From Flavobacterium sp. YJ01 (GTDB lineage Bacteria; Bacteroidota; Bacteroidia; Flavobacteriales; Flavobacteriaceae): DNA of 64,000 bases. Positions 8,731 through 25,145 of the stretch are shown in pieces. The stretch spans positions 372,001 through 436,000 of the forward strand of contig NZ_CP119757.1 in the NCBI RefSeq assembly GCF_029320955.1, written 5' to 3'. Under the pieces are notes generated by a model. It did not search any database and was not told where the DNA came from. It worked only from the letters and a program-made list of their open reading frames with translations. How positions within the stretch are numbered: position 1 is the stretch's first letter; every line of letters starts with the position of its first letter. Position numbers and translations under genes: made by a program.

Positions 8731-9779
8731 GTGTAAAGATAATTACAGCTGTGAAACAGCTTCCGCAATATTCCCGTTCAACCGAAGATATTCTTCCGCT
8801 TGTAGATGTTTGGCTGGAAGGACAAGAAGAACGTTTTATCAAAAAAGTAAAGAAAATTTTTGAAGGCGCGTCGGTAGACAAACGCTATTCGATTATGGAA
8901 CCTTCGGAAGTTTTTACTGCTACTTCTTTTGAAGAAAAAAATGATATTTACAGCAGAGAAATGATTGTTTTAGGACATCAGGTTTTGGAGAAAGCGCTTG
9001 AGAAAGCCAATTGGGATCCGCAAAGTCTTGATTATATTATCACAGTAAGCTGCACCGGAATTATGATTCCCTCTTTAGATGCGTATCTCATCAATAAAAT
9101 GAAATTGCGTCAAGATATTGTGCGCCTTCCCGTTACTGAAATGGGTTGTGCAGCAGGTATTTCTGGAATTATTTATGCGAAAAACTTCCTGAAATCAAAT
9201 CCTGGAAAACGCGCGGCAGTAATTGCAGTTGAATCGCCAACAGCTACTTTTCAATTAAATGATTTTTCTATGCCAAATATTGTGAGTGCTGCTATTTTTG
9301 GAGACGGAGCCTCTTGTTGCTTATTATCTTCTGATGAAAAAGACGAAGGCCCAGAAATTCTAGACGAACAAATGTATCATTTTTATGATGCCGAACATAT
9401 GATGGGTTTTAAACTCACGAATGGCGGACTGCAAATGGTTTTGGATATTGAAGTTCCAGATACGATTGCCTCTCATTTTGGCGACATTATTCATCCTTTT
9501 TTAAGTAAAAATAATCTGGAAATTAAAGATGTTGATCATATGATTTTTCATCCCGGAGGAAAAAAAATTGTAAATACGGTTGAAGAACTTTTTTCGGGTT
9601 TAAATAAAAATATAGACGATACTAAAGAAATTCTGAAACAATATGGAAATATGTCTAGTGCGACGGTTTTGTATGTTTTAGAAAGCATTATGGATCGAAA
9701 ACCAAAAAAGGGAGAAAAAGGCTTAATGCTAAGTTTTGGACCTGGATTTTCAGCACAACGCGTTTTATTACAATGGTAA
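8727..9779 (+). CDS. Type III polyketide synthase (chalcone/stilbene synthase superfamily)
   Basis: Homodimeric ketosynthase that extends an acyl starter with malonyl units and cyclises the product, commonly to resorcinols or pyrones. The 350-residue protein has the full catalytic triad: Cys141 in TEMGCAAG, His275 in IFHPGGKK, and Asn308 in YGNMSSAT. GPGFSAQRVLL near the C-terminus matches the family GFGPG loop with a shift (SFGPGFS). VSCTGIMIPSLDAYL is also family-typical. It starts by ATGA overlap with the methyltransferase. Unusually for bacterial type III systems, dedicated ketosynthase, dehydratase, ACP and PPTase genes follow, which suggests that the starter chain is built and delivered on a special ACP. 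KAS III (FabH) was considered, but the Cys-His-Asn spacing and C-terminal loop favour type III PKS. Confidence 0.94.
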   Translation: MSVKIITAVKQLPQYSRSTEDILPLVDVWLEGQEERFIKKVKKIFEGASVDKRYSIMEPSEVFTATSFEEKNDIYSREMIVLGHQVLEKALEKANWDPQSLDYIITVSCTGIMIPSLDAYLINKMKLRQDIVRLPVTEMGCAAGISGIIYAKNFLKSNPGKRAAVIAVESPTATFQLNDFSMPNIVSAAIFGDGASCCLLSSDEKDEGPEILDEQMYHFYDAEHMMGFKLTNGGLQMVLDIEVPDTIASHFGDIIHPFLSKNNLEIKDVDHMIFHPGGKKIVNTVEELFSGLNKNIDDTKEILKQYGNMSSATVLYVLESIMDRKPKKGEKGLMLSFGPGFSAQRVLLQW

Positions 9780-9789
9780 TTTTAGAATT

Positions 9790-10227
9790 ATGGAATTAAA
9801 CGACATTATAAAACAGCTTCCGTATAGCGAGCCTTTTTTGTTTGTAGATGAATTATTGTCTGCGGATGAAAACGGTATTACAGGAACGTATACTTTTAAC
9901 GAAAATCTTGATTTTTATAAAGGTCATTTTAAAAATAATCCCGTTACTCCTGGCGTTATCTTAACAGAAACAATGGCGCAAATCGGAATGGTTTGTTTGG
10001 GGATTTTTCTATTAAATAATGACTTACAAAGCGACACTGTAATTGCTTTTACATCAGCCGATATGGAATTTTTAAAACCTGTTTATCCGAATGAAAAAGT
10101 AACGGTAACTTCAGAGAAACTATTTTTCCGTTTTGGAAAACTAAAATGCAGTGCGGTAATGAAAAATGAAGCTGGACAAGAAGTTTGCAGAGGAATTTTA
10201 GCTGGAATGATAACCAAAAGATTATGA
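9790..10227 (+). CDS. FabZ-like 3-hydroxyacyl-ACP dehydratase
   Basis: Hotdog-fold dehydratase, 145 residues, close to FabZ length. LPYSEPFLFVDELL is the N-terminal family segment; FYKGHFKNNPVTPGVILTE carries the catalytic His (GHF) and the PGV loop, and ETMAQIG follows. I chose the ATG at 9790, ten bases after the polyketide synthase stop, because the upstream in-frame ATG at 9736 would overlap that gene by 44 bases and add an unrelated N-terminus. Its last bases overlap the next ATG. Since primary FabZ is normally encoded with lipid A or fatty acid genes, this is likely an extra, pathway-specific dehydratase acting on the operon's own ACP. Confidence 0.9.
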   Translation: MELNDIIKQLPYSEPFLFVDELLSADENGITGTYTFNENLDFYKGHFKNNPVTPGVILTETMAQIGMVCLGIFLLNNDLQSDTVIAFTSADMEFLKPVYPNEKVTVTSEKLFFRFGKLKCSAVMKNEAGQEVCRGILAGMITKRL

Positions 10228-11492
10228 AAAAACGAGTCGTAATAACTGGACTTGGCGTCGCTGCACCAAATGGCGTCGGAATTTCTGCGTTTACAAATGC
10301 CATTAAAAATGGAATTTCAGGAATTCGTTTCGATGCGCAATTAGCAGAATTGCAGTTTTCTTGCCAAATTGCTGGTCAGCCGCAGATTTCAGACGAACTT
10401 AAATCAGAATATTTTACTGAGTTAGAACTTCGTGGATTTAACAGCACAGGAATTCTATATGGCGTAATTGCAGGATTAGAAGCTTGGAAAAATGCAGGTT
10501 TACCCATAAACGAAACTACAGATTGGGATAGCGGAACCATCTTCGGATCTGGAACTTCTGGAATTGAAAAATTTCGCGAAAGCATTTATAAAATTGACGA
10601 TTTACAAACTCGAAGATTAGGAAGCACGGTTGTTGCACAAACCATGAACAGTGGCGTGAGTGCTTATTTAGGCGGAAAAATTGGACTTGGAAATCAGGTT
10701 ACTACAAACTCATCGGCTTGCACAACGGGAACCGAAGCTATTTTAATGGCGTACGATCGCATACAATCTGGGCAGGCAAAACGAATTTTGGCAGGAAGCA
10801 CTTCAGACAGCGGTCCGTATATTTGGGCGGGTTTTGATGCGCTTCGCGTTTGTTCTTCCAAATACAATGAAAATCCCGAAGAAGGTTCAAGACCAATGAG
10901 CGCAACAGCTTGCGGTTTTGTTCCGGGAAGTGGCGCAGGTGCTTTGGTTATTGAAGATTTAGAAAGCGCTTTAGCACGAAATGCTGTAATTTATGCCGAA
11001 ATATTAGGCGGGAACGTCAATTCTGGAGGACAACGCGACGGCGGAAGTATGACTGCTCCAAATAGCATTGCTGTTCAAAAATGCATTAAGGATGCCGTTT
11101 TGAATGCGAATATCAATCCAAACGAAATTGATGCCATAAACGGGCATCTTACCGCAACTACAAAAGACAGTCTGGAAATTGAAAATTGGACAAAAGCTTT
11201 AGAACGGAATGGCGCTGATTTTCCATACATCAATTCTTTAAAAAGCTTAACTGGACATTGTTTAAGCGCCTCAGGAAGTATAGAAAGTGTCGCTTCTGTT
11301 TTACAGCTTCAAGAAGGTTTTTTATTCGGAAATCTAAATTCTTCTGATCTTCATCCCGAAATTGCAGCACTTATTGATTCATCAAAAGTGCTTCAGAAAA
11401 CAATACATAACAATCCAAAAATAATCGCAAAAGCCAGTTTTGGTTTTGGCGATGTAAATGCCTGTATATTATTTAAAAAATTCGAAAAATAA
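10224..11492 (+). CDS. Beta-ketoacyl-ACP synthase (KAS I/II, FabF-like)
   Basis: Condensing enzyme of 422 residues that elongates acyl-ACP with malonyl-ACP. It has the Cys-His-His triad: Cys166 in NSSACTTGT, His308 in INGHLTATTKDS, and His345 in KSLTGHCLSASG. The N-terminus KKRVVITGLGVAAPNGVG is standard. The His308 motif reads NGHLT rather than the usual NAHGT, a sign of a divergent, secondary-metabolism ketosynthase. I chose the ATG at 10224 because it overlaps the dehydratase stop as ATGA and gives the normal family N-terminus; the upstream ATG at 10185 adds unrelated residues. Together with the FabZ-like enzyme and the ACP it can make a chain; no ketoreductase or enoyl reductase is present in the operon. 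Confidence 0.93.
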   Translation: MKKRVVITGLGVAAPNGVGISAFTNAIKNGISGIRFDAQLAELQFSCQIAGQPQISDELKSEYFTELELRGFNSTGILYGVIAGLEAWKNAGLPINETTDWDSGTIFGSGTSGIEKFRESIYKIDDLQTRRLGSTVVAQTMNSGVSAYLGGKIGLGNQVTTNSSACTTGTEAILMAYDRIQSGQAKRILAGSTSDSGPYIWAGFDALRVCSSKYNENPEEGSRPMSATACGFVPGSGAGALVIEDLESALARNAVIYAEILGGNVNSGGQRDGGSMTAPNSIAVQKCIKDAVLNANINPNEIDAINGHLTATTKDSLEIENWTKALERNGADFPYINSLKSLTGHCLSASGSIESVASVLQLQEGFLFGNLNSSDLHPEIAALIDSSKVLQKTIHNNPKIIAKASFGFGDVNACILFKKFEK

Positions 11493-11493
11493 A

Positions 11494-11748
11494 ATGAACA
11501 GAACAGAAATTACCGAAAAACTAAAAGAGATTATAAAGCCATACGCAGCTAATACAGAAGCACACGAAAACCTAACGGAAGACACCGATTTCATCAAAGA
11601 TTTGAATATCAATTCGGCTAATCTTGTTGATATTGTATTGGATATTGAAGAAAAATTTGATGTAGTAATTGACAACGCCGACATGGAACGTATGCTTGAT
11701 GTGAAAACCGCAATTGAAATTATCGAAACTAAACTCGAGGCAAAATGA
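11494..11748 (+). CDS. Acyl carrier protein
   Basis: 84-residue four-helix carrier protein. The phosphopantetheine site is Ser41 in DLNINSANLVDIVLDIEEKF; the usual Asp before Ser is Asn, so the motif is NSA instead of DSL. The following IVLDIEEKFDVVI is the typical helix II. The ATG at 11494 lies one base after the ketosynthase stop and gives a normal ACP N-terminus; an ATG at 11458 would add 12 odd residues. The last codon overlaps the PPTase start (ATGA). It probably carries the acyl chain for the operon's ketosynthase and dehydratase and is loaded by the adjacent transferase. Confidence 0.93.
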   Translation: MNRTEITEKLKEIIKPYAANTEAHENLTEDTDFIKDLNINSANLVDIVLDIEEKFDVVIDNADMERMLDVKTAIEIIETKLEAK

Positions 11749-12242
11749 TAGGCAACGATATTGTAGATCTTGCGCAATCTCGGCTAGAAAGCAGATGGTC
11801 ACGTAAAGGTTTAATTGAAAAGCTTTTTAATCCACAAGAACAACAGCTTATAAAAAATTACCATGATCCAGAAATCATGGTATGGTTGCTTTGGAGCATG
11901 AAAGAAGCTGCCTATAAAATCTACAATAGACAAACTAAAATAAGAGAATTCAGTCCCAAAAAACTAGTATGCGATTTGAATTCTCTAAGCGATTTTCAAG
12001 CGCTCGGAACTGTTTCTTGCCTTCAAAATACATTTTACACCAAAACTATTATCTCTTCAGAAAACATTCATTCTATTGCTGTTAATAACTTAGAAAACCT
12101 CAACAATGTGATAGAAATCGAAAGAAAGGAAATTGTAAAAGACGAATTTGGTATTCCATATTTAAAAACTTCGTCCGCAACTTTTAAAGATGTTTCTGTT
12201 TCTAATCATGGGCGTTTTGAAAAGGTTGTGACTTATAAATAA
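11745..12242 (+). CDS. 4'-phosphopantetheinyl transferase
   Basis: 165 residues. It transfers phosphopantetheine from CoA to the Ser of a carrier protein. The magnesium-binding N-terminal motif is MIGNDIVDLAQ and the second motif is WSMKEAAYKIYNR, with Glu and Lys in the positions used by AcpS/Sfp enzymes. The length is between AcpS (about 120) and Sfp (about 230). It overlaps the ACP gene by four bases, so the natural target is that ACP. It is the last gene of the operon; about 420 bases without a gene follow. Confidence 0.9.
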   Translation: MIGNDIVDLAQSRLESRWSRKGLIEKLFNPQEQQLIKNYHDPEIMVWLLWSMKEAAYKIYNRQTKIREFSPKKLVCDLNSLSDFQALGTVSCLQNTFYTKTIISSENIHSIAVNNLENLNNVIEIERKEIVKDEFGIPYLKTSSATFKDVSVSNHGRFEKVVTYK

Positions 12243-14309: not shown

Positions 14310-15278
14310 TCAACTTAACTTACTAACTGCTTTTATAAAATAAGGCGAATCGTTCCAGCGGATTTTCTTATACGAGAAGTCTTTTTTAAGCGATTCAGGA
14401 AGACAATTCCAGATCGCTTCGTTCATTTTTTCGAGTAATAATTTCTTTGAAAAAGAATCAGAAACTACGAGGCTTATTTCTCTTACGGGAACAGGTTCTT
14501 TGAAAGGTTTGAAAAGTCCGCCCGACTCGTTCAAGGTCGAAAGTTTGGGAATAATCGCAAATCCTAAATGGGCACGAACGAGATTTTTTAAAGTTTCTAT
14601 AGAATTAATATCGTACGTAAATTGTTCTTTTATTTTATCTGATGTTTTTAGTCCGCAAATGTCTAGCAATTGTGCGTTATAGCAATATTCATGATGAAGC
14701 AATAATAATTCGGTTTTATCGCCTGGCTGCATTTCATAAAATTCATCATTTGCCATCGGATGCGTCTCATTTAAATAGGCCACAAAAGGCTCTTTAAAAA
14801 CAACATGTTCAATTAAATTAGAATTTCCGGTTGGCGTTGCCATAATTGCGACATCAATCGCGCCCGTTTCTAATTCCTTCATTAAATGTCCCGTATACCC
14901 TTCTTTGATAATAAAATGCACTTTTGGCGCCGCTTCTTTCATTGCTTGAATAAATAAAGGAATCAAATAAGGAGATAAAGTTGAAATAATGCCTAGTTTC
15001 AACTCGCCTTCCAGTAAGTTTTTTTCGTTTACAACAAAATCACGAATTTCATCTACTTCGCGAAGAATCTTTTTGGCTTTGTTTATAATTTCGATTCCTA
15101 AAACCGTTGGAGTAAGCGGCACTTTATTCCGATCAAAAATCTTGATTCCAATTTCTTCTTCCAGGTTTTTTAACTGAATTGTAAGCCCAGGTTGCGTTAC
15201 CATACAAACTTCAGCAGCTCTTGCAAAATGGCGTTCTTCATCTAAAGCGACAATATATTTTAATTGCTGAATGGTCAT
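14310..15278 (-). CDS. oxyR: OxyR-type LysR regulator
   Basis: 322-residue LysR-family regulator that senses hydrogen peroxide. The N-terminal winged helix-turn-helix is typical (YIVALDEERHFARAAEVCMVTQPGL). In the effector domain the two cysteines used as the redox switch in E. coli OxyR are present at identical numbers, Cys199 (HHEYC) and Cys208 (LLDIC), with eight residues between them. This argues for a true peroxide sensor rather than a generic LysR protein. It reads towards the broken hydrolase and OsmC. Four tandem 8-base repeats lie directly upstream of its start, which may affect its expression. Confidence 0.92.
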   Translation of the reverse strand: MTIQQLKYIVALDEERHFARAAEVCMVTQPGLTIQLKNLEEEIGIKIFDRNKVPLTPTVLGIEIINKAKKILREVDEIRDFVVNEKNLLEGELKLGIISTLSPYLIPLFIQAMKEAAPKVHFIIKEGYTGHLMKELETGAIDVAIMATPTGNSNLIEHVVFKEPFVAYLNETHPMANDEFYEMQPGDKTELLLLHHEYCYNAQLLDICGLKTSDKIKEQFTYDINSIETLKNLVRAHLGFAIIPKLSTLNESGGLFKPFKEPVPVREISLVVSDSFSKKLLLEKMNEAIWNCLPESLKKDFSYKKIRWNDSPYFIKAVSKLS

Positions 15279-15842: not shown

Positions 15843-15850
15843 TATATTTG
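15843..15850 (+). promoter_or_regulatory. Candidate -7 element of the Kai-like operon
   Basis: TATATTTG matches TAnnTTTG and lies 22 bases before the GTG start of the KaiC gene, implying a very short leader. The -33 element is not clear. Confidence 0.5.
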
Positions 15851-15872: not shown

Positions 15873-17546
15873 GTGCAAGAAAAAACAAAATCACATAGTT
15901 TTATATTTCCAAAAACTCCTACTGGAGTCGACGGATTAGACGAGATTACAGAAGGAGGATTTCCGCAAGGACGACCAACTTTAATCTGCGGTGGCGCTGG
16001 ATGCGGAAAAACATTATTGTCATTGCAATTCTTAATAAAAGGAATTACAGAATATAACGAACCCGGAGTTTTCATGTCTTTTGAAGAACCTTCAGACGAC
16101 TTGACTCTCAATGTTAAATCATTAGGCTTTGATCTAGAACAACTTAAAAAAGACAAAAAACTTGTTGTAGATCATGTTCGCGTTGAAAGATCAGAAATTG
16201 AGGAAGCTGGCGAATACGATTTGGACGGCTTATTTATTCGTTTAGGACATGCCATCGATTCCATAAAAGCGACTCGTGTTGTACTAGATACAATAGAATC
16301 GTTATTTGCTGGTCTTGACAATCAAGCAATACTGCGAGCCGAATTACGAAGATTGTTTCATTGGCTCAAAGCCAAAGGCGTAACAGCCGTTATTACTGGA
16401 GAACGTGGCGAAGCAACTTTAACTCGTCAAGGTCTAGAAGAATATGTTTCGGACTGTGTGATCGTTCTCGATCATCGCGTAATTGAACAGGTTTCGACTA
16501 GAAGACTACGAGTTGTAAAATACAGAGGATCAACACATGGAACAAACGAATATCCATTTTTAATTGATGAAGATGGAATTTCGGTACTTCCGATTACGTC
16601 TTTAAAATTAGATAATGAAGTTTCGTCTGATATTATTTCTACAGGCGTTCCAGGACTAAACGAAATGTTTAACGGAGGCGGTTTTTATCGTGGAAGTAAT
16701 ATTTTGGTTTCTGGAACAGCTGGAACGGCAAAAACTACTGTTGCCTGTTATTTTGCCAACCAACAATGCGAAAAGAACGAAAAAACAATTTATTTTGCTT
16801 TTGAAGAATCTCCGCATCAATTGGTTCGTAACATGAAATCGATTGGAATTGATCTTGAAAAACACATTAAAAAAGGCATTCTACAAATTCACTCTTCTCG
16901 CCCATCTTTAAATGGTCTTGAGTTGCATTTGCTTACGCTTAGAAAATTAATCAAAGAGTTTGCTCCAACGACAATTATTATTGATCCTATCAGTAATCTT
17001 ATTTCGGTGGGAAGTGAACACGAAGTTCGCTCGATGTTAGTTCGATTAATTGATATGCTGAAAGCCAATAATATTACGGCAATGTTTACTTCTTTGAACA
17101 AACAAACGGACAATTTCAGACCTGATTTGGCAGAAGAATCAGTTTCTTCATTAGTCGATACTTGGATTACAGTTCGCGATATGGAGGGAATTGGCGAAAG
17201 AAATCGCGGTATTTTTATCATCAAAGCACGCGGAATGGGACATTCTAACCAGGTAAGAGAGTTTGTGATCACAAGTAACGGAATCGAATTATTGGATGTA
17301 GAATTAGGTCCGCAAGGAATTTTAACAGGCGCAGCAAGACAATCTTATCAATTCAAGAAAACTATGTCTGATATTAAGCTTCAAAACGAAATTAACAGAA
17401 AAGACAGAGAAATTGAGCGTAAACGTAAAGTACTCGAAGCCAATATTGAAGCATTAAGAAACGAATTTGAGTCGGCAGAAGAAGAATTAAGTATCCTTAA
17501 AGCAACAGAAGAATTGCAGGAAAAACTATCTTCTAAGAAAAAATAA
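15873..17546 (+). CDS. kaiC: KaiC-like double-ATPase protein with C-terminal coiled coil
   Basis: 557-residue RecA-superfamily protein with two KaiC domains. CI (about 15-240) has Walker A GGAGCGKT (40-47) and the catalytic Glu pair E71-E72; CII (about 255-480) has Walker A GTAGTAKT (281-288) and E311-E312. By hand alignment Ser425-Ser426 fall where cyanobacterial KaiC has its phosphosites Ser431-Thr432, while Thr426 is replaced by Ala420. Residues about 495-553 form a charged heptad coiled coil in place of the KaiA-binding tail, as in the KaiA-less KaiBC timer of Rhodobacter sphaeroides. The start is GTG at 15873, preceded by a -7-like site. Two kaiB genes, a kinase and a receiver follow within a few bases. 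A hexameric ATPase with timer or stress-signalling function is likely; true circadian function is unproven. Confidence 0.93.
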
Positions 17547-17551
17547 ATCAG

Positions 17552-17845
17552 ATGAAAAAAGAAGTAGCCGAATGGCAATTATTACTTTATATAGCAGGAC
17601 AAACGCCAAAATCAATCAAGGCGCTTGAGAATATAAAAAAGTATGCAGAAGAATATTTAAAGGGAAAATACAGCATTGAGATTATCGATTTGCTGAAAAA
17701 TCCGCAATTGGCAGAAGGCGATCAAATTTTGGCGGTACCAACTTTGGTGCGAAAATTTCCTGAACCTATCCGTAAAATTATAGGTGATCTTTCTAATGAA
17801 GAAAGAGTGCTTGTAGGTCTTAACATTAAACCTATAAACTCTTAG
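17552..17845 (+). CDS. kaiB: KaiB-family protein 1 (close to canonical)
   Basis: 97-residue thioredoxin-like Kai[21 protein letters not shown], then [20 protein letters not shown] and [19 protein letters not shown] match the conserved KaiB core almost throughout, including the NPQLAE and GDLS motifs. In cyanobacteria KaiB changes fold to bind the CI ring of phosphorylated KaiC; this copy keeps the region that refolds. It begins five bases after the kaiC stop. Confidence 0.93.
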
Positions 17846-17847
17846 AA

Positions 17848-18159
17848 ATGGAAGATTCATCTGATGGCACAAGTACAACCAAACATAAGTTTATGCTTTT
17901 TGTTTCAGGTATGTCTGTTAAATCAGGACATGCAATAGAAAATTTACGCAAAATCTGCGACACTTACCTCACAAACAATTATGAATTAGAAATTGTCGAT
18001 ATCAGTCGAGATAAAGAACAAGCTGTTATTCATCAAATTGTAGCGATTCCGACATTAATAAAGACTCACCCAGAACCAAAAAGAATTATTCTGGGTGATT
18101 TATCAGATAAAGAAAAAGTATTATATATACTGAATATAAACGAAAAGCTTGGAGGATAA
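17848..18159 (+). CDS. KaiB-family protein 2 (divergent)
   Basis: 103 residues, beginning two bases after the first kaiB. The fold is recognisable (KFMLFVSGMSVKSGHAIENL, AIPTLIKTHPEPKRIILGDLSDKEKVL), but the NPQLAE segment of true KaiB is replaced by DKEQAVIHQ. It has about ten extra residues at the N-terminus. This pattern of one canonical and one divergent KaiB suggests different partners: one for KaiC, the other perhaps for the kinase encoded next, since SasA-type kinases use a KaiB-like fold. That is inference. Its last codons overlap the kinase gene by 11 bases. Confidence 0.88.
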   Translation: MEDSSDGTSTTKHKFMLFVSGMSVKSGHAIENLRKICDTYLTNNYELEIVDISRDKEQAVIHQIVAIPTLIKTHPEPKRIILGDLSDKEKVLYILNINEKLGG

Positions 18160-19405
18160 CAAAAAAAATATAGCCGCATTATTAGCAGAAATTGAATCGT
18201 TAAAGGAAGAACTTTACGAGTCAAACAGTATTGTCAATGCCATAAAACAAGGAGATGTAGATGCACTTGTAGTAAGCAGCAATGGTGTTCCTGAACTTTA
18301 CTCTTTAGAAACTGCCGATTATACTTATCGCCTTCTTATTGAAAAATTTGGACAGGGCGCTTTGAGTATTTCTAGAAAAGGGCTCATTCTTTATTGTAAT
18401 GAATATTTTTCGAAATTAGTCGGAATTCCGTCAGAGAAAATAATTGGAAATTACTTAAGCGAATATTTTGTTAGCCCCACGCAATTTGTATCTATAATAG
18501 AAGCGTTGCGCTACGGTATTACAACTCATGAAATTCTTTTAAAATCGGAAAATGAAAAAAAGATTTTCCCTGCTTATATTGCCTTAACTGATCTTGAACC
18601 TGCTGTAGAAGCCATCGGAATTGTAATTACCGATTTGACAGAAAAGAAAAAACACGAGGAAGCTCTAATTAAACACCAAAAAGAATTAGAAGAAAAAATA
18701 AACGAACTCAATAAAACAAATCGTAATCTGGAGGAATTTATTCATGTAATATCGCACGATTTAAAAGAACCACTGCGAAAAATTGTCATGAATACCAGCA
18801 GAATTGACCAAAGTTATTTTAAAGAATCGGACGTTAAAGCTATAAATGTAATGAAGTTATCTGCTCTTCGATTAAATTCGCTTGTAGATGATTTAGTTCA
18901 ATATTCCTCGCACACGGCACAAGAAGAACGAACCGAAATAGATTTAGAAACCGTAATTTCAGAAGTTCTTGAGGATTTTGAAATTGTAATTTCTGACAAA
19001 AATGCAAGTATTAAAACAGGAAAACTGCCTAGAATTAAAGCTTCTAGAGTACAAATGCGACAGCTTTTCTCTAATCTTATTTCGAACGCGATTAAATACA
19101 GTAAAACTAACATTTCTCCTGTAATAGAAATTTATCAAGAAGAAAATTTAGATGCTGAAATACCAAACCAAAATGCTAAATTTGTAAAAGTTCAGATTAA
19201 AGATAACGGCATTGGAATGGAAGAATCTCATTTGCTTAAAATCTTTGTCATCTTTCAGCGACTGCATGCCCGAAACGAATATTCGGGAAACGGTATTGGT
19301 CTTGCCATTTGTAAAAAAATTATGGAAAACCATTCTGGAAATATTACAGTCGAAAGTACATTGAACGAAGGAACAGTATTTAACCTTTACTTCCCAATTT
19401 TATAA
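18149..19405 (+). CDS. PAS-domain sensor histidine kinase of the Kai-like operon
   Basis: 418 residues, soluble (no membrane segment). An N-terminal coiled segment contains AIKQGDVDALVVSSNGVPELYSLETADYTYRLL, then a PAS domain (about 60-165), a second coil, a HisKA domain with phospho-acceptor His203 in VISHDLKEPLRKI, and an ATPase domain with NLISNAIKYSK, DNGIGMEES and GNGIGLAICKKIM. The frame has no Met near its beginning; the best start is TTG at 18149, inside the last codons of the second kaiB. It probably reads the state of KaiC/KaiB and signals to the receiver gene that follows one base later. In cyanobacteria that task belongs to SasA; here the sensor part is PAS, not KaiB-like. Confidence 0.9.
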   Translation: MEDNKKNIAALLAEIESLKEELYESNSIVNAIKQGDVDALVVSSNGVPELYSLETADYTYRLLIEKFGQGALSISRKGLILYCNEYFSKLVGIPSEKIIGNYLSEYFVSPTQFVSIIEALRYGITTHEILLKSENEKKIFPAYIALTDLEPAVEAIGIVITDLTEKKKHEEALIKHQKELEEKINELNKTNRNLEEFIHVISHDLKEPLRKIVMNTSRIDQSYFKESDVKAINVMKLSALRLNSLVDDLVQYSSHTAQEERTEIDLETVISEVLEDFEIVISDKNASIKTGKLPRIKASRVQMRQLFSNLISNAIKYSKTNISPVIEIYQEENLDAEIPNQNAKFVKVQIKDNGIGMEESHLLKIFVIFQRLHARNEYSGNGIGLAICKKIMENHSGNITVESTLNEGTVFNLYFPIL

Positions 19406-19406
19406 A

Positions 19407-19811
19407 ATGCCAGAAAAATACAATTTACATATTCTGATTGCCGAAGATGACATCGATGATGCAGATGTTATGTCAGAAACTTTTAACAATAATCCAAGTT
19501 TTAGCAAAGTAAGTATTGTTGCTAATGGTGAAGAACTGCTGAATTACTTAAAAGACGAATCAAACAAAAAACCCGACGTTATTCTTACCGATATCAACAT
19601 GCCAATTATTGATGGTATTGAAGCGTTGCAAGAAATTCTAAATACGAAAGAATTAAAAGATATTCCGTGTTTTGTTTATTCAACAAGCATTAACCCATCT
19701 TACAAAGAAAAATGCGATGATATGGGCGTTAAAGCCTATTTGATTAAGCCTTATTCTTTTGAAGCTTTCGCCGAAATTCCGAAAACTATTTTAAGTATTA
19801 TCGAAGCTTAA
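19407..19811 (+). CDS. Stand-alone receiver-domain response regulator
   Basis: 134 residues consisting of a single CheY-like receiver domain: acidic pocket EDD at 13-15, phospho-acceptor Asp62 in VILTDINMP, Thr/Ser switch YSTS, and Lys in YLIKPYS. There is no DNA-binding or output domain. It starts one base after the kinase stop and ends the Kai-like operon. This receiver type (NINMP/DINMP with a KPYS end) is common beside phytochrome and KaiC-linked kinases. The output partner must be encoded elsewhere or be a protein-protein target. Confidence 0.92.
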   Translation: MPEKYNLHILIAEDDIDDADVMSETFNNNPSFSKVSIVANGEELLNYLKDESNKKPDVILTDINMPIIDGIEALQEILNTKELKDIPCFVYSTSINPSYKEKCDDMGVKAYLIKPYSFEAFAEIPKTILSIIEA

Positions 19812-19999: not shown

Positions 20000-21073
20000 A
20001 TGAAACAATTATTACAGTGGACCATCATTATTCCAATTCTATCTTGGGTTCTTTTATTTAGCGGACTAATCGCAGATAGCAGTATTTTTCAAATTGTTTC
20101 TAGTATTTTACTTATTCTCAGCGTAATGTCGGCTGTTCATCATTCTGAAATTATTGCAGAACGTGTTGGAGAACCTTACGGAACCATAATTTTGGCTATC
20201 TCAATCACTGTAATTGAAGTTTCTATTATCGTTTCTTTAATGCTTTCGGAAGGTTCTGAAGCGGCTTCTCTTGCCCGCGATACCGTTTATGCCGCGACAA
20301 TGCTAATTTTAAACGGTATTATCGGATTGTGTCTTCTTATTGGAAGCATAAAACATTACGAACAGAATTTCTCTACTTCTTCCGTTACCATTGGTTTAGT
20401 TTCGCTAATTTCTATTATTGTGTTTACTTTGGTCTTCCCTACTTTTACAGAAAGTGTTCATGGTTCTTATTATTCTACTCCACAGTTGATTTTTGCTTCT
20501 ATTGCCTGTTTGGTTATTTACGGCTCATTTTTATTTGCTCAAACAAAAGGTTATCGCCAATATTTTCTAACGAATGGAACGGATGAAGATGCTAAAACTC
20601 ATCCCATAGAAATCAATAATAAAACATTTTATACCAGTCTTATTTTTCTTTTGGTAAGTTTAGGAATTGTAGTTTTACTTGCCAAAACCCTTTCTCCTAC
20701 TATCGAGACTATTATTATAGGTTACAATCTTCCTAAATCTTTAGTTGGAGTTATTATTGCCATAATTATTTTATTACCCGAAGCTATCGCAGCAATTATT
20801 GCTGCAAGAAAAAACAGATTGCAAACAAGTCTTAATTTAGCTTTAGGTTCTGCTCTAGCCAGTATCGGATTGACAATCCCAAGTGTTGCGGCCGTTTGTA
20901 TTATAATGGGGATGCCAATTGTTCTCGGACTCGATATTAAATCGATTGTACTTTTAGCACTATCTGTTTTTACAGTTATGCTTTCTTTAAGCAAAGGAAA
21001 ATCGAATATTGTATATGGCGTTGTGCTTTTGGTTAATTTATTTGCTTTTATGTTTTTGATGATTTATCCTTGA
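20000..21073 (+). CDS. ChaA-like Ca2+(Na+)/H+ antiporter
   Basis: 357-residue inner-membrane antiporter of the CaCA superfamily with about ten hydrophobic helices. The two family repeats are visible: HHSEIIAERVGEPYGTIILAISITVIEVSII (N-terminal alpha-1 region with the ion-binding Glu) and LLPEAIAAIIAARKNRLQTSLNLALGSALASIGLT (C-terminal alpha-2 region). These match ChaA, which exports calcium, sodium or potassium in exchange for protons. It stands alone, 188 bases after the Kai-like operon and followed by a repeat-rich gap. Confidence 0.9.
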   Translation: MKQLLQWTIIIPILSWVLLFSGLIADSSIFQIVSSILLILSVMSAVHHSEIIAERVGEPYGTIILAISITVIEVSIIVSLMLSEGSEAASLARDTVYAATMLILNGIIGLCLLIGSIKHYEQNFSTSSVTIGLVSLISIIVFTLVFPTFTESVHGSYYSTPQLIFASIACLVIYGSFLFAQTKGYRQYFLTNGTDEDAKTHPIEINNKTFYTSLIFLLVSLGIVVLLAKTLSPTIETIIIGYNLPKSLVGVIIAIIILLPEAIAAIIAARKNRLQTSLNLALGSALASIGLTIPSVAAVCIIMGMPIVLGLDIKSIVLLALSVFTVMLSLSKGKSNIVYGVVLLVNLFAFMFLMIYP

Positions 21074-21080
21074 TTTTTTT

Positions 21081-21156
21081 AAACACATAGAAACATAGAT
21101 TTTAATTTCTTGAAAAAAGAATACTAAAAGAAACTAGTTTCTCACACATAGCTTTG
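21081..21156. repeat. Intergenic repeat A, copy 3 (half copy)
   Basis: AAACACATAGAAACATAG, then AGAAACTAGTTTCT (21129-21142) and CACACATAGC. It matches the left part of copy 1 in the same orientation. The 404-bp gap before gnd holds this, repeat C and a short palindrome, but no gene. Confidence 0.75.
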
Positions 21157-21169
21157 CGTATATGAAGTC

Positions 21170-21202
21170 AACTTTGTCAAAGTTTCGAACTTTGACAAAG
21201 TT
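21170..21202. repeat. Repeat C copy 2
   Basis: AACTTTGTCAAAGTT-TCG-AACTTTGACAAAGTT, arms identical to those at 15343-15375. Confidence 0.9.
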
Positions 21203-21347
21203 TAATACGACCTTACCAATTACAACGATATAGTTCATAAACAGCGTTATAAGTGTATTTTTAACACCTATAAAAGTATCACAATAAAGACCAAAAGTGA
21301 ACTATTTTACTCCTCATTTTTCATCATTTTTCTCTAACTTAGCGCTC

Positions 21348-21363
21348 TACATTTTGAAATGTA
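21348..21363. promoter_or_regulatory. Inverted repeat in the gnd leader
   Basis: TACATTT-TG-AAATGTA, about 115 bases before the gnd start. It could be an operator or part of an RNA leader; nothing else identifies it. Confidence 0.3.
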
Positions 21364-21477
21364 AGATTAAAATAAACTTTGTTTTTCTGCAAAACATTGA
21401 TTGAAAAAGAATTACCAAACTTTCTCTTACTTTTTGCTAGAAAAACATCCTTCTAATAATTTAGTTAATTGAAAACT

Positions 21478-22887
21478 ATGAGCAAATTTGATTTTGGAAT
21501 TGTAGGACTCGGTGTAATGGGCCGTAACTTACTTTTAAATATTGCTAGCCATAACTTCGCGGCGGCAGGTTTAGATTTAGATACAGAAAAAGTCAACTCT
21601 CTTCAGCAAGAAGCTGATGCGGACCATACTATTGAAGCGACTACAGATGTTAAGCATTTTGTAGAACTTATTCAACAGCCTAGAGCTATTATGTTATTGG
21701 TTCCTGCAGGAAAACCTGTTGATAGCGCAATCGCTAGCTTACTTCCTCATTTAGATAAAGGTGATATTATTATTGATGGTGGAAACACGTATTTTACCGA
21801 TACAGACAGAAGATTTTTAGAATTATCTGAAAAAGGAATTCACTTTTTCGGAATGGGAATTTCTGGTGGAGAAAAAGGCGCTCGTTTCGGTCCTGCTATG
21901 ATGCCAGGTGGCGATCAAAAAGCGTATGAAAGACTTCGTCCTATTTTTGAAGCAATTGCAGCAAAAGTTGACGGAGAACCTTGCGTAGAATATCTAGGAA
22001 ATGGTTCTGCTGGAAACTACGTAAAAATGGTTCATAACGGAATCGAATACGGAATTATGCAGTTGATTTCTGAGATTTATGACTTAATGAAAAGAGGTTA
22101 TAATTTGGATGATGAAACGATTCAGAAAACTTTTGAAGAATGGAACCAAACAGACGATTTAAGATCTTACTTGATTGAAATTACTGGGAAAATCCTAAAA
22201 CAAAAAGACGAAGACGGAGCTCTTTTAATTAATAAAATTTCAGATTGGGCAAAATCTAAAGGCACGGGAAAATGGACTTCGCAAAACGCAATGGATTTAC
22301 AAGTTCCAGTTCCAACTATCGACGCTGCAGTTATAATGCGCGATATGTCTAAAACAAAACCGGAAAGAATTGAAGCTGCTAAAAAATTAGTTTGGAATGC
22401 TTCTGAAACAAATGTTCCGCAAAGCGAAGCAATTGCAGCTTTAAAATCGGCTTTATATCTTTCGATTGTTGTGACCTACGCACAAGGATTAGCGCAACTT
22501 AACACCGCTTCTAAAGAATACAACTACGGATTAAATCTAGAAACGGTTGCTAAAATCTGGCGTGGCGGATGTATCATTCGTGCTACAATTTTAGAAGATT
22601 TTAGAAAAGCATACGTTACAAAATCAGATTTGCCAAATTTGCTTTTAGATAACGGAATTGCTTCAAAACTAACAGAAAACCAAGCAGGAATGAGAGCCGT
22701 GATTCAGTTTGCTGTTCAAAAAGGATTACCTGTTGCTGGATTAATGAATTCGTTAGCCTATTTCGATGCTTACCGTTCTGCAAATCTGCCAACAAACCTA
22801 ATTCAGGCACAACGCGATTTCTTTGGAGCACATACGTACGAACGTATTGATAAAGAAGGCGTTTTCCATACACAATGGGCTGAATAA
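21478..22887 (+). CDS. gnd: 6-phosphogluconate dehydrogenase (decarboxylating)
   Basis: 469 residues, normal for the long homodimeric form. It converts 6-phosphogluconate to ribulose 5-phosphate, CO2 and NADPH. The N-terminus is the nucleotide-binding motif IVGLGVMGRNLLLN; IIDGGNTYFTDT, GMGISGGEKGARFGPAMMPGG and GNGSAGNYVKMVHNGIEYG carry the substrate-binding and catalytic residues (Lys and Asn of KMVHNGIEY). I chose ATG at 21478 over the TTG nine bases earlier. It is the first of three oxidative pentose phosphate genes in a row, so it is probably co-transcribed with zwf and pgl. Confidence 0.97.
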   Translation: MSKFDFGIVGLGVMGRNLLLNIASHNFAAAGLDLDTEKVNSLQQEADADHTIEATTDVKHFVELIQQPRAIMLLVPAGKPVDSAIASLLPHLDKGDIIIDGGNTYFTDTDRRFLELSEKGIHFFGMGISGGEKGARFGPAMMPGGDQKAYERLRPIFEAIAAKVDGEPCVEYLGNGSAGNYVKMVHNGIEYGIMQLISEIYDLMKRGYNLDDETIQKTFEEWNQTDDLRSYLIEITGKILKQKDEDGALLINKISDWAKSKGTGKWTSQNAMDLQVPVPTIDAAVIMRDMSKTKPERIEAAKKLVWNASETNVPQSEAIAALKSALYLSIVVTYAQGLAQLNTASKEYNYGLNLETVAKIWRGGCIIRATILEDFRKAYVTKSDLPNLLLDNGIASKLTENQAGMRAVIQFAVQKGLPVAGLMNSLAYFDAYRSANLPTNLIQAQRDFFGAHTYERIDKEGVFHTQWAE

Positions 22888-22915
22888 CAATTAAAGCAAC
22901 ACAACTACAACCACA

Positions 22916-24448
22916 ATGACTAAAAATAAACTTAAGAATCCAACAATCATTGTTATTTTTGGAGGAACCGGAGATTTGGCGAAGAGAAAGCTCTTTCCCG
23001 CATTTCAAAATCTGTACCTTGACGGGCGTATGTCTGAAAAGTTTCAGATTATTGCTCTTGGAAGAGCAGAAAAAACCAATGAAGATTTTCGCAGTTATGT
23101 CGCAGAAAACCTAAATCTTTTTTCAAGAAGAAAAGGAGTTGATGATCCAGAAACTGAAAAATTTCTTTCGCACATAACCTACCATAGTCTTGATATTGAC
23201 AAGGAAGAATCGTATATCGGATTGAATGAAAAAATCAACAATTTCGATCTGGCTTTTGGCGAACGTGCTAATCGTCTTTTCTATCTTTCGATAACACCTT
23301 CTTTTATTTCAACGATTTCAAGCAATATCAAAAAAATCGGACTTGCGGCAAATCCGAAACAAGATCGTATTATCATCGAAAAACCATTTGGTTACGATAA
23401 AACTTCTGCAATTGAATTGAATGAAATGCTTTCGCAGACTTTTAAAGAAGAGCAGATTTATAGAATCGACCATTATTTAGGTAAAGAGACAGTTCAGAAT
23501 ATTTTGGCTTTCCGTTTTGGAAATTCAATGTTTGAACCTTTATGGAGTCGTAATTTCATTGATTTTGTACAAATTACCGTTGCTGAAGAAGTCGGCGTTG
23601 AAGAACGTGGCGGATTTTACGAAGGTGTTGGAGCATTAAAAGATATGATTCAGAACCATTTGCTTCAAATTTTATGTATGACGGCTATGGAAGCGCCTGC
23701 ATCCTTAAATGCAGATGATATTCGTAACCGGAAAGCAGACGTTTTAAAATCTATTCGCCGTATTAAACCAGATGAAGTCGATCATTATATTGTCAGAGGT
23801 CAGTACGATGCTGGAGAAATAAAAGGCGTTCCAGTTCCAGGATATCGCCAAGATAAAGGCATTGCACCAGATTCTAATACAGAAACTTATGTAGCCATGA
23901 AGATTTATTTGGACAACTGGAGATGGCAGGGAATTCCGTTTTACTTGCGTTCTGGAAAAAGAATGGAAGAAAAACAGTCTTCTATCATTATTCAGTTTAA
24001 ACCAGTCCCACATTCTTCATTTTCTTATGGAAAAGAAGGTATGACTCCAAACCGATTGATTATCAACATTCAGCCTTCAATGGACATTAAACTACAGTTT
24101 ATGACCAAAAAGCCAGGTTTATCAATGTCTTTAAGACCTGCTGAAATGGTTTTTGATTATTTTGCTTGTTCTACAATGTCACCAGAAGCTTATGAAACAT
24201 TAATAGCAGATGCCTTATTAGGAGATCCTACTCTATTTATGCGTTGGGATCAAGTGGAAGAAGCTTGGGACGCAATTGATACCATTCAGCAAGTTTGGAA
24301 AACAACTGCTCCAAAGAATTTCCCGAATTACAAAGCAGGAAGCTGGGGACCTGAAGAAGCTGACGAATTGTTAGCACGCCAAGGACACGCATGGATTCCG
24401 AATACACAAACAAAAGAAGAAGTTTTAAATGATACAGATTTACAATAA
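22916..24448 (+). CDS. zwf: Glucose-6-phosphate 1-dehydrogenase
   Basis: 510 residues. It oxidises glucose 6-phosphate to 6-phosphogluconolactone with NADP+. The N-terminal coenzyme motif is VIFGGTGDLAKRKLFPA, EKPFGYDKTSA follows, and the substrate-binding and catalytic segment is RIDHYLGKETVQN, which contains the essential His. It starts 28 bases after gnd and overlaps pgl by 20 bases. The gene order is the reverse of the pathway order, which is common in this phylum. Confidence 0.97.
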   Translation: MTKNKLKNPTIIVIFGGTGDLAKRKLFPAFQNLYLDGRMSEKFQIIALGRAEKTNEDFRSYVAENLNLFSRRKGVDDPETEKFLSHITYHSLDIDKEESYIGLNEKINNFDLAFGERANRLFYLSITPSFISTISSNIKKIGLAANPKQDRIIIEKPFGYDKTSAIELNEMLSQTFKEEQIYRIDHYLGKETVQNILAFRFGNSMFEPLWSRNFIDFVQITVAEEVGVEERGGFYEGVGALKDMIQNHLLQILCMTAMEAPASLNADDIRNRKADVLKSIRRIKPDEVDHYIVRGQYDAGEIKGVPVPGYRQDKGIAPDSNTETYVAMKIYLDNWRWQGIPFYLRSGKRMEEKQSSIIIQFKPVPHSSFSYGKEGMTPNRLIINIQPSMDIKLQFMTKKPGLSMSLRPAEMVFDYFACSTMSPEAYETLIADALLGDPTLFMRWDQVEEAWDAIDTIQQVWKTTAPKNFPNYKAGSWGPEEADELLARQGHAWIPNTQTKEEVLNDTDLQ

Positions 24449-25145
24449 TACAGAAGAAATAAATACTGTTGCGGCAGATTTATTTGTAGAATCGGCTGAG
24501 AAAGCAATTGCTGCAAAAGGCAAATTCACAGCTGTGCTTACAGGAGGTTCTTCGCCAGCAGGAATTTATAAATTATTAGCATCTGATTCTTATAAAAATA
24601 AAATAGACTGGAGTAAAGTTTATATTTTTTGGGGAGACGAACGCTGGGTTCCGCTTAACGATGATTTGAGTAATGCTAAAATGTCTTATTCAACTTTACT
24701 AAGCCACGTTCCTGTTCCGCAAGAAAACATTTTTGAAATGTACAAAGACGGTGTTACGCCTGAAGAATATGCCGTTACTTACGAAGAAATCATTAAAAAG
24801 ATTTTAGGAGAAGAAGGTAAATTTGACCTTATTTTATTAGGTATGGGAGATGACGGACACACGGCTTCTCTTTTTCCTGGTGAAGCTGTTTTAAAAGAGC
24901 AAACAAAATGGGTTGACGCTTATTATTTAGCTCCGCAGAAAATGTACAGAATTACACTAACTGCCCCATTAATCAACAAAGCAGAAAAAATTGTGGTTGT
25001 CGCTTTTGGTGAAAAGAAAGTTCATGCTTTAAAAGAAGTTACAACTGGAGAATTTAATCCAACTTTATATCCAATGCAATTGATTAAGCCGGTTTCTGGA
25101 GAATTATTGTTTTTGGTGGATAAAGTTGCTGCTGGACAGAATTAA
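24429..25145 (+). CDS. pgl: 6-phosphogluconolactonase (DevB type)
   Basis: 238-residue hydrolase that opens 6-phosphogluconolactone. Family motifs are LTGGSSPAGIYKLL, IFWGDERWVPLND and LILLGMGDDGHTASLFPG, the last holding the proposed catalytic His. It begins inside the 3' end of zwf (20-base overlap in another frame), implying translational coupling. A perfect intrinsic terminator lies 26 bases after its stop, closing the operon. Confidence 0.96.
   Translation: MIQIYNNTEEINTVAADLFVESAEKAIAAKGKFTAVLTGGSSPAGIYKLLASDSYKNKIDWSKVYIFWGDERWVPLNDDLSNAKMSYSTLLSHVPVPQENIFEMYKDGVTPEEYAVTYEEIIKKILGEEGKFDLILLGMGDDGHTASLFPGEAVLKEQTKWVDAYYLAPQKMYRITLTAPLINKAEKIVVVAFGEKKVHALKEVTTGEFNPTLYPMQLIKPVSGELLFLVDKVAAGQN

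Follow-up and report, generated by a model that had tools for sequence, protein, structure and literature searches.

Positions 15873–19811 of the window analyzed here (64,000 bp from Flavobacterium sp. YJ01, contig NZ_CP119757.1) carry a run of five genes that encode a KaiC, two KaiBs, a PAS-domain histidine kinase and a single-domain response regulator (receiver). We read this operon as a Rhodobacter-type switch or hourglass built on KaiB and KaiC, independent of KaiA and equipped with a signalling branch of its own, a reading whose chances of being right and wrong we judge to be about evenly balanced. The two KaiBs are predicted to have opposite folds and the kinase begins with a segment linked to kai genes, which together suggest how such a timer could pass on its signal. 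The initial annotation had described five tightly packed genes; the open reading frames, their Pfam matches (KaiC ATPase in two stretches, KaiB, KaiB, PAS plus HisKA plus HATPase_c, and Response_reg) and the gaps between them agree with that description. The features discussed below are as follows:

15843–15850 (+): promoter-like TATATTTG, 22 nucleotides upstream of the kaiC start
15873–17546 (+): kaiC, 557 amino acids, GTG start; two RecA-like ATPase domains (CI and CII) and a coiled-coil tail
17145–17150 (+): codons of Ser425-Ser426, the putative phosphosite pair, equivalent to Rhodobacter Ser413-Ser414 by alignment to the solved structure 8dba
17343–17543 (+): C-terminal coiled-coil tail of KaiC, by alignment with the tail of solved Rhodobacter KaiC
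17552–17845 (+): kaiB1, 97 amino acids; clock-type KaiB with a predicted ground-state fold
17848–18159 (+): kaiB2, 103 amino acids; diverged second KaiB with a predicted fold-switched, thioredoxin-like fold
18149–19405 (+): soluble PAS histidine kinase, 418 amino acids, TTG start; overlaps the kaiB2 stop
18155–18484 (+): Kai-linked N-terminal segment of the kinase, comprising a helix, the GDVDALVV element and the beginning of the PAS domain
19407–19811 (+): single-domain response regulator, 134 amino acids; Asp62 codon at 19590–19592

KaiC and the distribution of the operon

By its sequence the window KaiC is a close relative of the protein of the KaiA-less Rhodobacter timer, a likeness that had been noticed earlier and that stands. 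Its best matches among proteins of solved structure are Rhodobacter KaiCs (600–604 bits for full-length proteins, 604 with 8dba, and 574 for a truncated one), whereas the next type of KaiC scores 369. The alignment spans residues 13–550, tail included, and it is by this alignment to a solved protein that the C-terminal coiled coil, also claimed earlier, is identified; a heptad count was not decisive. The window protein thus has the two domains, Walker lysines, glutamate pairs, Ser-Ser and coiled-coil tail that we take together as the Rhodobacter, or KaiC2/KaiB2, type. Conservation of these residues was counted over 110 loci (loci and genomes carry our L and G numbers), leaving out L086 and L088, which have no KaiC, and L001 and L002, which are the window itself. 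The Walker lysine and the glutamate pair of CII are present in 110 of 110 loci and those of CI in every locus that includes these residues (87, 90 and 92 loci), and the initial annotation was right to call both sets intact in the window. Ser425 and Ser426 are each Ser in 108 of the 110, with four loci deviating from Ser-Ser at one position. As also stated there, Ala420 occupies the position of Thr426 (in our alignment to the cyanobacterial numbering), where 70 of the 110 loci have Ala and 28 Thr. Trp431 aligns to Rhodobacter Trp419, and a loop with Gly113 (G in 105/105 loci) and Asp116 (D in 101/105) is presumably the counterpart of the KaiB-binding loop of cyanobacterial KaiC.

Rhodobacter KaiC is described as a phosphorylation timer governed by the ATP/ADP ratio and by KaiB: it is phosphorylated at Ser413/Ser414, ADP leads to its dephosphorylation and KaiB raises its ATPase activity (PMC10076222). 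Tails like that of the window KaiC are present in most of the relatives whose tails were printed; there is none in L110 or L111, nor in the KaiCs of another type at L097 and L101. L110 and L111 (genomes G234 and G130, from the family of the window) have a single KaiB, and their kinase, which has the Kai-linked segment, is preceded by a gap of some 245 bases; they offer a natural test of the role of the coil.

The earlier claim that KaiA is absent agrees with our search of the whole genome (99.97% complete), which gave zero matches to PF07688 where a Synechococcus control was positive; diverged KaiA3-type proteins, which do exist (PMC11372060), were not searched separately. In this genome of 5.48 Mb on one contig the only KaiB matches are the two in the operon, and the only two-domain KaiC is this one. 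That the operon is a true self-sustained circadian oscillator is very improbable. KaiC and KaiB are conserved and a damped rhythm without KaiA has been reported in Synechococcus (PMC7205874), but the genome has no KaiA match, and the closest studied system, Rhodobacter KaiC with KaiB, is termed an hourglass timer and has an ATPase without temperature compensation (PMC10076222).

The five-gene operon is no one-off. Of 103 loci 80 were retained as relatives, and 63 of these are of the Flavobacterium type, with KaiCs 76–98% identical to that of the window; some are labelled to family or phylum only, and the closest named relatives are Flavobacterium species (top KaiC identity 98%). The search of related genomes proposed in the initial annotation found all five genes in order in 60 of the 63, the remaining three (L048, L056 and L059) being without the receiver. 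The spacing in these relatives is −12 to 22 nucleotides between kaiC and kaiB1, −4 to 9 between kaiB1 and kaiB2, −4 to 6 between kaiB2 and the kinase, and −17 to 8 between kinase and receiver (in the 60 with a receiver). The other 17 loci, from Hymenobacter, a Pseudohoeflea isolate and metagenome-assembled genomes of several phyla, have the order kaiC-kaiB-kaiB-signalling gene (one KaiB in L078); the arrangement kaiC-kaiB(-kaiB)-signalling gene is found again outside the phylum of the window. KaiB matches are present in 39 of 395 evenly drawn Bacteroidota genomes (37 above the cut-off), in 8 of 24 genomes of the genus of the window, its own counted, and in 38 of 398 genomes of the phylum of L081 (the Pseudohoeflea locus). 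Kai pairs in Bacteroidetes were already reported in 2017 (PMC5520375), and kai genes as well as diel expression in the Bacteroidota of microbial mats are noted in a review (PMC10173096).

The two KaiB proteins

KaiB1 resembles a shape-switching clock KaiB in its sequence, switch residues and model, whereas KaiB2 is predicted to have the opposite, KaiC-binding type of fold and has a Lys at a known switch position. The best matches of KaiB1 are clock KaiBs (Rhodobacter 102 bits, cyanobacterial 95–99). Among solved proteins KaiB2 matches Rhodobacter KaiB first (75 bits), Legionella KaiB 4kun second (59) and the cyanobacterial KaiBs at 44–49. The AF-Cluster paper describes a Legionella KaiB that crystallized in the fold-switched state, which we infer to be 4kun, and a T. 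elongatus variant (8UBH) that is likewise fold-switched; according to the same paper, Rhodobacter KaiB changes its fold with I68R, V83D and a substitution at N84, the exchange at position 68 replacing a hydrophobic residue by a charged one (PMC10808063). We assigned these positions by the sole spacing that yields I, V and N in Rhodobacter KaiB, which gives I73, V88 and G89 in KaiB1 and K78, Y93 and I94 in KaiB2. The first KaiBs of two-KaiB loci have I/M/V/L, V/I and G at the three positions, each in 95 of 95, while the 95 second KaiBs have K or R (60), Q, E or N (10), a hydrophobic residue (22) or Pro (3) at position 68; in the Flavobacterium-type loci, which are not independent of one another, it is K or R in 58 of 69. 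AlphaFold2, given matched alignments of 15 rows for the two proteins (14 shared loci plus the window), predicted a helix at 73–78 and a C-terminal strand at 88–94 in KaiB1, which is the ground-state order, and strands at 69–74 and 79–82 followed by a helix at 88–94 in KaiB2, the switched order.

In a KaiB tree of 68 rows chosen from the loci, limited by its 97 columns and by long branches, first and second copies separate: 2 label changes suffice for the 29 second copies and 4 for the 29 first copies, against about 22 with shuffled labels. The tandem pair therefore looks old, consisting of paralogs whose order has been kept or which were passed on together as a unit. Over 60 loci the mean pairwise identity is 89.4% for KaiC and 93.4% for KaiB1, and 77.5% for KaiB2, 71.8% for the kinase and 74.3% for the receiver. 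Given KaiC distance, the divergence of KaiB2 has partial correlations of 0.49–0.52 with that of the kinase and receiver and 0.21 with that of KaiB1, relatedness not being fully removed from these values; KaiB1 itself correlates with kinase and receiver at 0.27–0.41. The rates fit a slow core (KaiC and KaiB1) and a fast output group (KaiB2, kinase and receiver), and are suggestive only.

KaiB2 could instead be a relaxed or regulatory duplicate that stands outside the output path, with KaiB1 alone serving KaiC and the kinase reading KaiC or KaiB1 directly. Its fast evolution relative to KaiB1 and the presence of the same kinase segment in operons with a single KaiB (below) speak for such a duplicate; its constant position in all 63 Flavobacterium-type loci, its membership of an old group of second copies that several phyla have kept, and a divergence that tracks kinase and receiver more than KaiB1 speak against it, and on balance we consider it somewhat unlikely.

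The proposed signalling branch

The kinase has PAS (residues 60–118), HisKA (194–257) and HATPase_c (301–416) domains and no Pfam match before residue 60; a TTG stands at the aligned start in most relatives. HisKA, HATPase_c and the Response_reg domain of the receiver all score above the Pfam cut-off, and the kinase has the motif SHDLKEP and the receiver Asp62, as in a two-component pair. The receiver is a single domain with no output domain by Pfam, so the earlier statement that the operon includes the output path was too strong. We rejected the receiver as a core part of the system, there being none in L048, L056 and L059; nor was a receiver match found near kaiC in three Hymenobacter loci.

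When the kinase of the window is aligned with 18 others, whose operons come from several phyla (a nineteenth, from L078, failed the motif filter), a shared N-terminus of about 110 residues is seen, composed of a helix, a G-x-V-D-A-L-V-V-like element and the start of the PAS domain. A model of this segment has 28 full-length matches (116–153 bits) in the 395 Bacteroidota genomes, one per genome and the genome of the window among them, and all 28 lie 20–272 bases from a KaiB gene. The 15 other matches there (up to 46 bits) cover the PAS half only, and none is less than 2 kb from an above-cut-off KaiB. In the 398 genomes of the L081 phylum there are 10 full-length matches (67–145 bits, including the anchor genome) and 5 partial ones; all 10 lie 25–93 bases from a KaiB, and the nine of these places that were fetched are all behind KaiC and KaiB. 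All 38 full-length matches in the 793 genomes (two of them the anchors) are thus at most 272 bases from a KaiB. With no more than 11 candidates scored in each genome, these phylum-wide searches could miss weak extra copies, and distant unlinked forms could be missed because the model was built from Kai-linked kinases. The 17 Kai-bearing genomes that were scored fully have one strong match each, plus two weak ones, of which that in G402 is partial and that in G401 is discussed below. The segment is absent from nine of the 37 Bacteroidota genomes whose KaiB is above the cut-off; the KaiB matches of two of these, G177 and G217, are partial only, and that of G217 is at a contig end. The segment caps HisKA kinases, HWE kinases (L083 and L122) and GGDEF-EAL proteins (L075, L078 and L121). 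It is therefore not simply part of one kinase family inherited whole, and its sequence sits on three kinds of enzyme as would be expected of an input module.

From the genes, residues, conserved order, fold predictions and segment linkage shown above we infer binding, a direction of signalling and a possible timing as follows. The coiled coil would hold KaiC in hexamers or dodecamers, and at high ATP KaiC would autophosphorylate at Ser425/Ser426. Rising ADP, together with a slow fold switch of KaiB1 and its binding to the CI ring, would let KaiC drift back. KaiB2, already in the binding fold, might skip the slow step when it engages the CI ring and either compete with KaiB1 binding or report on it, as the KaiB-like domain of cyanobacterial SasA does with KaiB. 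The N-terminal segment of the kinase would read the state of KaiC and KaiB, and the kinase would phosphorylate the receiver, which would act on a partner elsewhere. The weakest of these steps are the binding of KaiB2 to KaiC and the question of what reads what.

A more specific proposal is that an old tandem pair of KaiBs split the labour. The first would have remained the switching part of the timer, and the second, in Flavobacterium and certain other Bacteroidota, would have become locked in the shape that binds KaiC; with the Kai-specific segment on the following enzyme, whatever its kind, this second KaiB would form the output path of non-cyanobacterial KaiC systems. KaiB2 and the kinase of Flavobacterium would then be a SasA in two pieces. 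We regard this proposal as unlikely. Several observations weigh against the scheme of the preceding paragraph. The fold-switched 8ubh is the weakest match of KaiB2 (40 bits) yet scores 61 with KaiB1. The confidence of the two models is modest (predicted local distance difference test scores of 66.8 for KaiB1 and 73.3 for KaiB2), and published critiques hold that AlphaFold2 recalls known KaiB folds. Of the 26 second KaiBs outside the Flavobacterium type, 19 are hydrophobic at position 68, 2 have R and 5 have Q or E, and for this reason we rejected a fixed fold as a trait of second KaiBs in general. The single-KaiB operons L083, L093, L094, L096, L110 and L111 bear the same kinase segment, so coupling in general does not require KaiB2, which we rejected as a universal coupler. 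No KaiB-kinase fusion is present among the 63 KaiB matches of the 395 Bacteroidota genomes (frames of at most 199 amino acids) or the 61 of the L081-phylum set (where a lone frame of 360 amino acids was read and is no fusion), and a split SasA argued from gene fusion was rejected. The KaiCs of L110 and L111 have no coil, yet the kinase is retained. Finally, a kinase in G401 has a near-full-length segment match (47 bits, positions 3–108), and the 7 kb fetched there contain no KaiB.

If the proposal is true, this would be a natural case of adjoining KaiB paralogs of which one is a fold switcher and the other fixed. According to the conclusion of a 2017 survey, non-cyanobacterial KaiC systems must have an output path that differs from the known one, since the SasA relatives in them are without the KaiB-like domain (PMC5520375). 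A separate KaiB2 with a predicted SasA-like fold and a segment found on three kinds of output enzyme are two concrete candidates for a non-cyanobacterial output path, and they lie in a genus with many cultured relatives. SasA and the Flavobacterium pair are alike in having a thioredoxin-fold KaiB-like part (predicted in KaiB2) and a HisKA kinase beside a KaiC system; they differ in that this part is fused to the kinase in SasA (PMC5520375) whereas KaiB2 is a separate, overlapping gene, and in that the Flavobacterium kinase begins with another segment and a PAS domain.

A dedicated kinase does not distinguish this operon from that of Rhodobacter, as had been supposed, since the order in Rhodobacter (Cereibacter) sphaeroides KD131 is kaiC-kaiB-HWE histidine kinase; this operon, and that of R. 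palustris, had been described by 2016–2017 (PMC5520375, PMC4794148). Of the extra parts once credited to Flavobacterium only the free receiver stands, and it is absent in 3 of the 63 close relatives. Like the Flavobacterium operon, that of Rhodobacter has no KaiA, a KaiC with Ser-Ser, glutamate pairs and coiled coil, and behind KaiB a kinase with the same N-terminal segment; unlike it, it has one KaiB, an HWE rather than a HisKA kinase and no adjoining receiver gene. A pair of KaiBs placed after KaiC and ahead of a signalling gene is also found in Methylobacterium extorquens (kaiC1-kaiB2-kaiB1-kaiR1; PMC8069551) and on a Pararhizobium plasmid (kaiC-kaiB-kaiB-kinase/response regulator), where the signalling protein is one gene (kaiR1 was compared by description) in contrast to the kinase and free receiver of Flavobacterium. 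KaiC-KaiB followed by a kinase or a GGDEF/EAL protein was described in 2011, in a paper that also reports KaiC-kinase pairs of the Ramlibacter group, whose kinases (RtaNt) have a conserved N-terminus proposed to read KaiC (PMC3164672); this group differs in having no KaiB, and the RtaNt N-terminus was set beside our segment by description only. Our literature search, with subscription journals largely outside its scope, found no paper on this operon in Flavobacterium, and, being unable to target the segment as such, no description of the Kai-linked segment of KaiB operons. The operon type itself is already known; for the opposite predicted folds of the tandem KaiBs, and for the Kai-linked segment, this search gave no prior description.

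Surroundings of the operon and other kai loci

The promoter-like TATATTTG fits what we take to be the Bacteroidetes −7 promoter element; it stands 19–26 nucleotides upstream of kaiC in 52 of the 63 relatives, against 0.6% of base-shuffled upstream pieces. Upstream of the operon is a gene for an OxyR-like regulator (14310–15278, − strand), and downstream (20000–25145, + strand) are a ChaA-type antiporter gene and then gnd-zwf-pgl, these last three named from their sequences. This arrangement is retained in the closest Flavobacterium genomes only, so we treated the neighbourhood as uninformative and rejected the flanking genes as a functional clue. They would otherwise favour an energy- or stress-responsive regulator that is no timer, in which the amount and phosphorylation of KaiC report temperature, ultraviolet light or redox state and the kinase and receiver switch on protection. 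Such a regulator is a possibility that we entertain tentatively. KaiC proteins set temperature-dependent ultraviolet resistance in Methylobacterium extorquens AM1, which has the two-KaiB layout (PMC8069551); on the other side, the Flavobacterium KaiC retains the residues of a phosphorylation timer, but sequence cannot separate a slow switch from a timer.

Two kinds of unusual kai loci were seen among the other genomes. At L135:5917–10136 (G184) and at L128 (G373) a KaiB gene is flanked by two histidine kinase genes with no adjoining KaiC, and the best match to the KaiC family (PF06745) in either genome is only 64 bits and lies elsewhere. In L132 (G480) the order kaiB-kaiC-receiver protein-kaiB-kaiC-GGDEF protein, with domains as read from the open reading frames, makes up a double cluster that has two different KaiCs within about 6 kb. 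Elsewhere in the window, at 9736–12242 (+), genes that we take to encode a dehydratase, a ketosynthase, an acyl carrier protein and a phosphopantetheinyl transferase lie together, and are perhaps, as we read the sequence, the end of an aryl polyene or flexirubin cluster.

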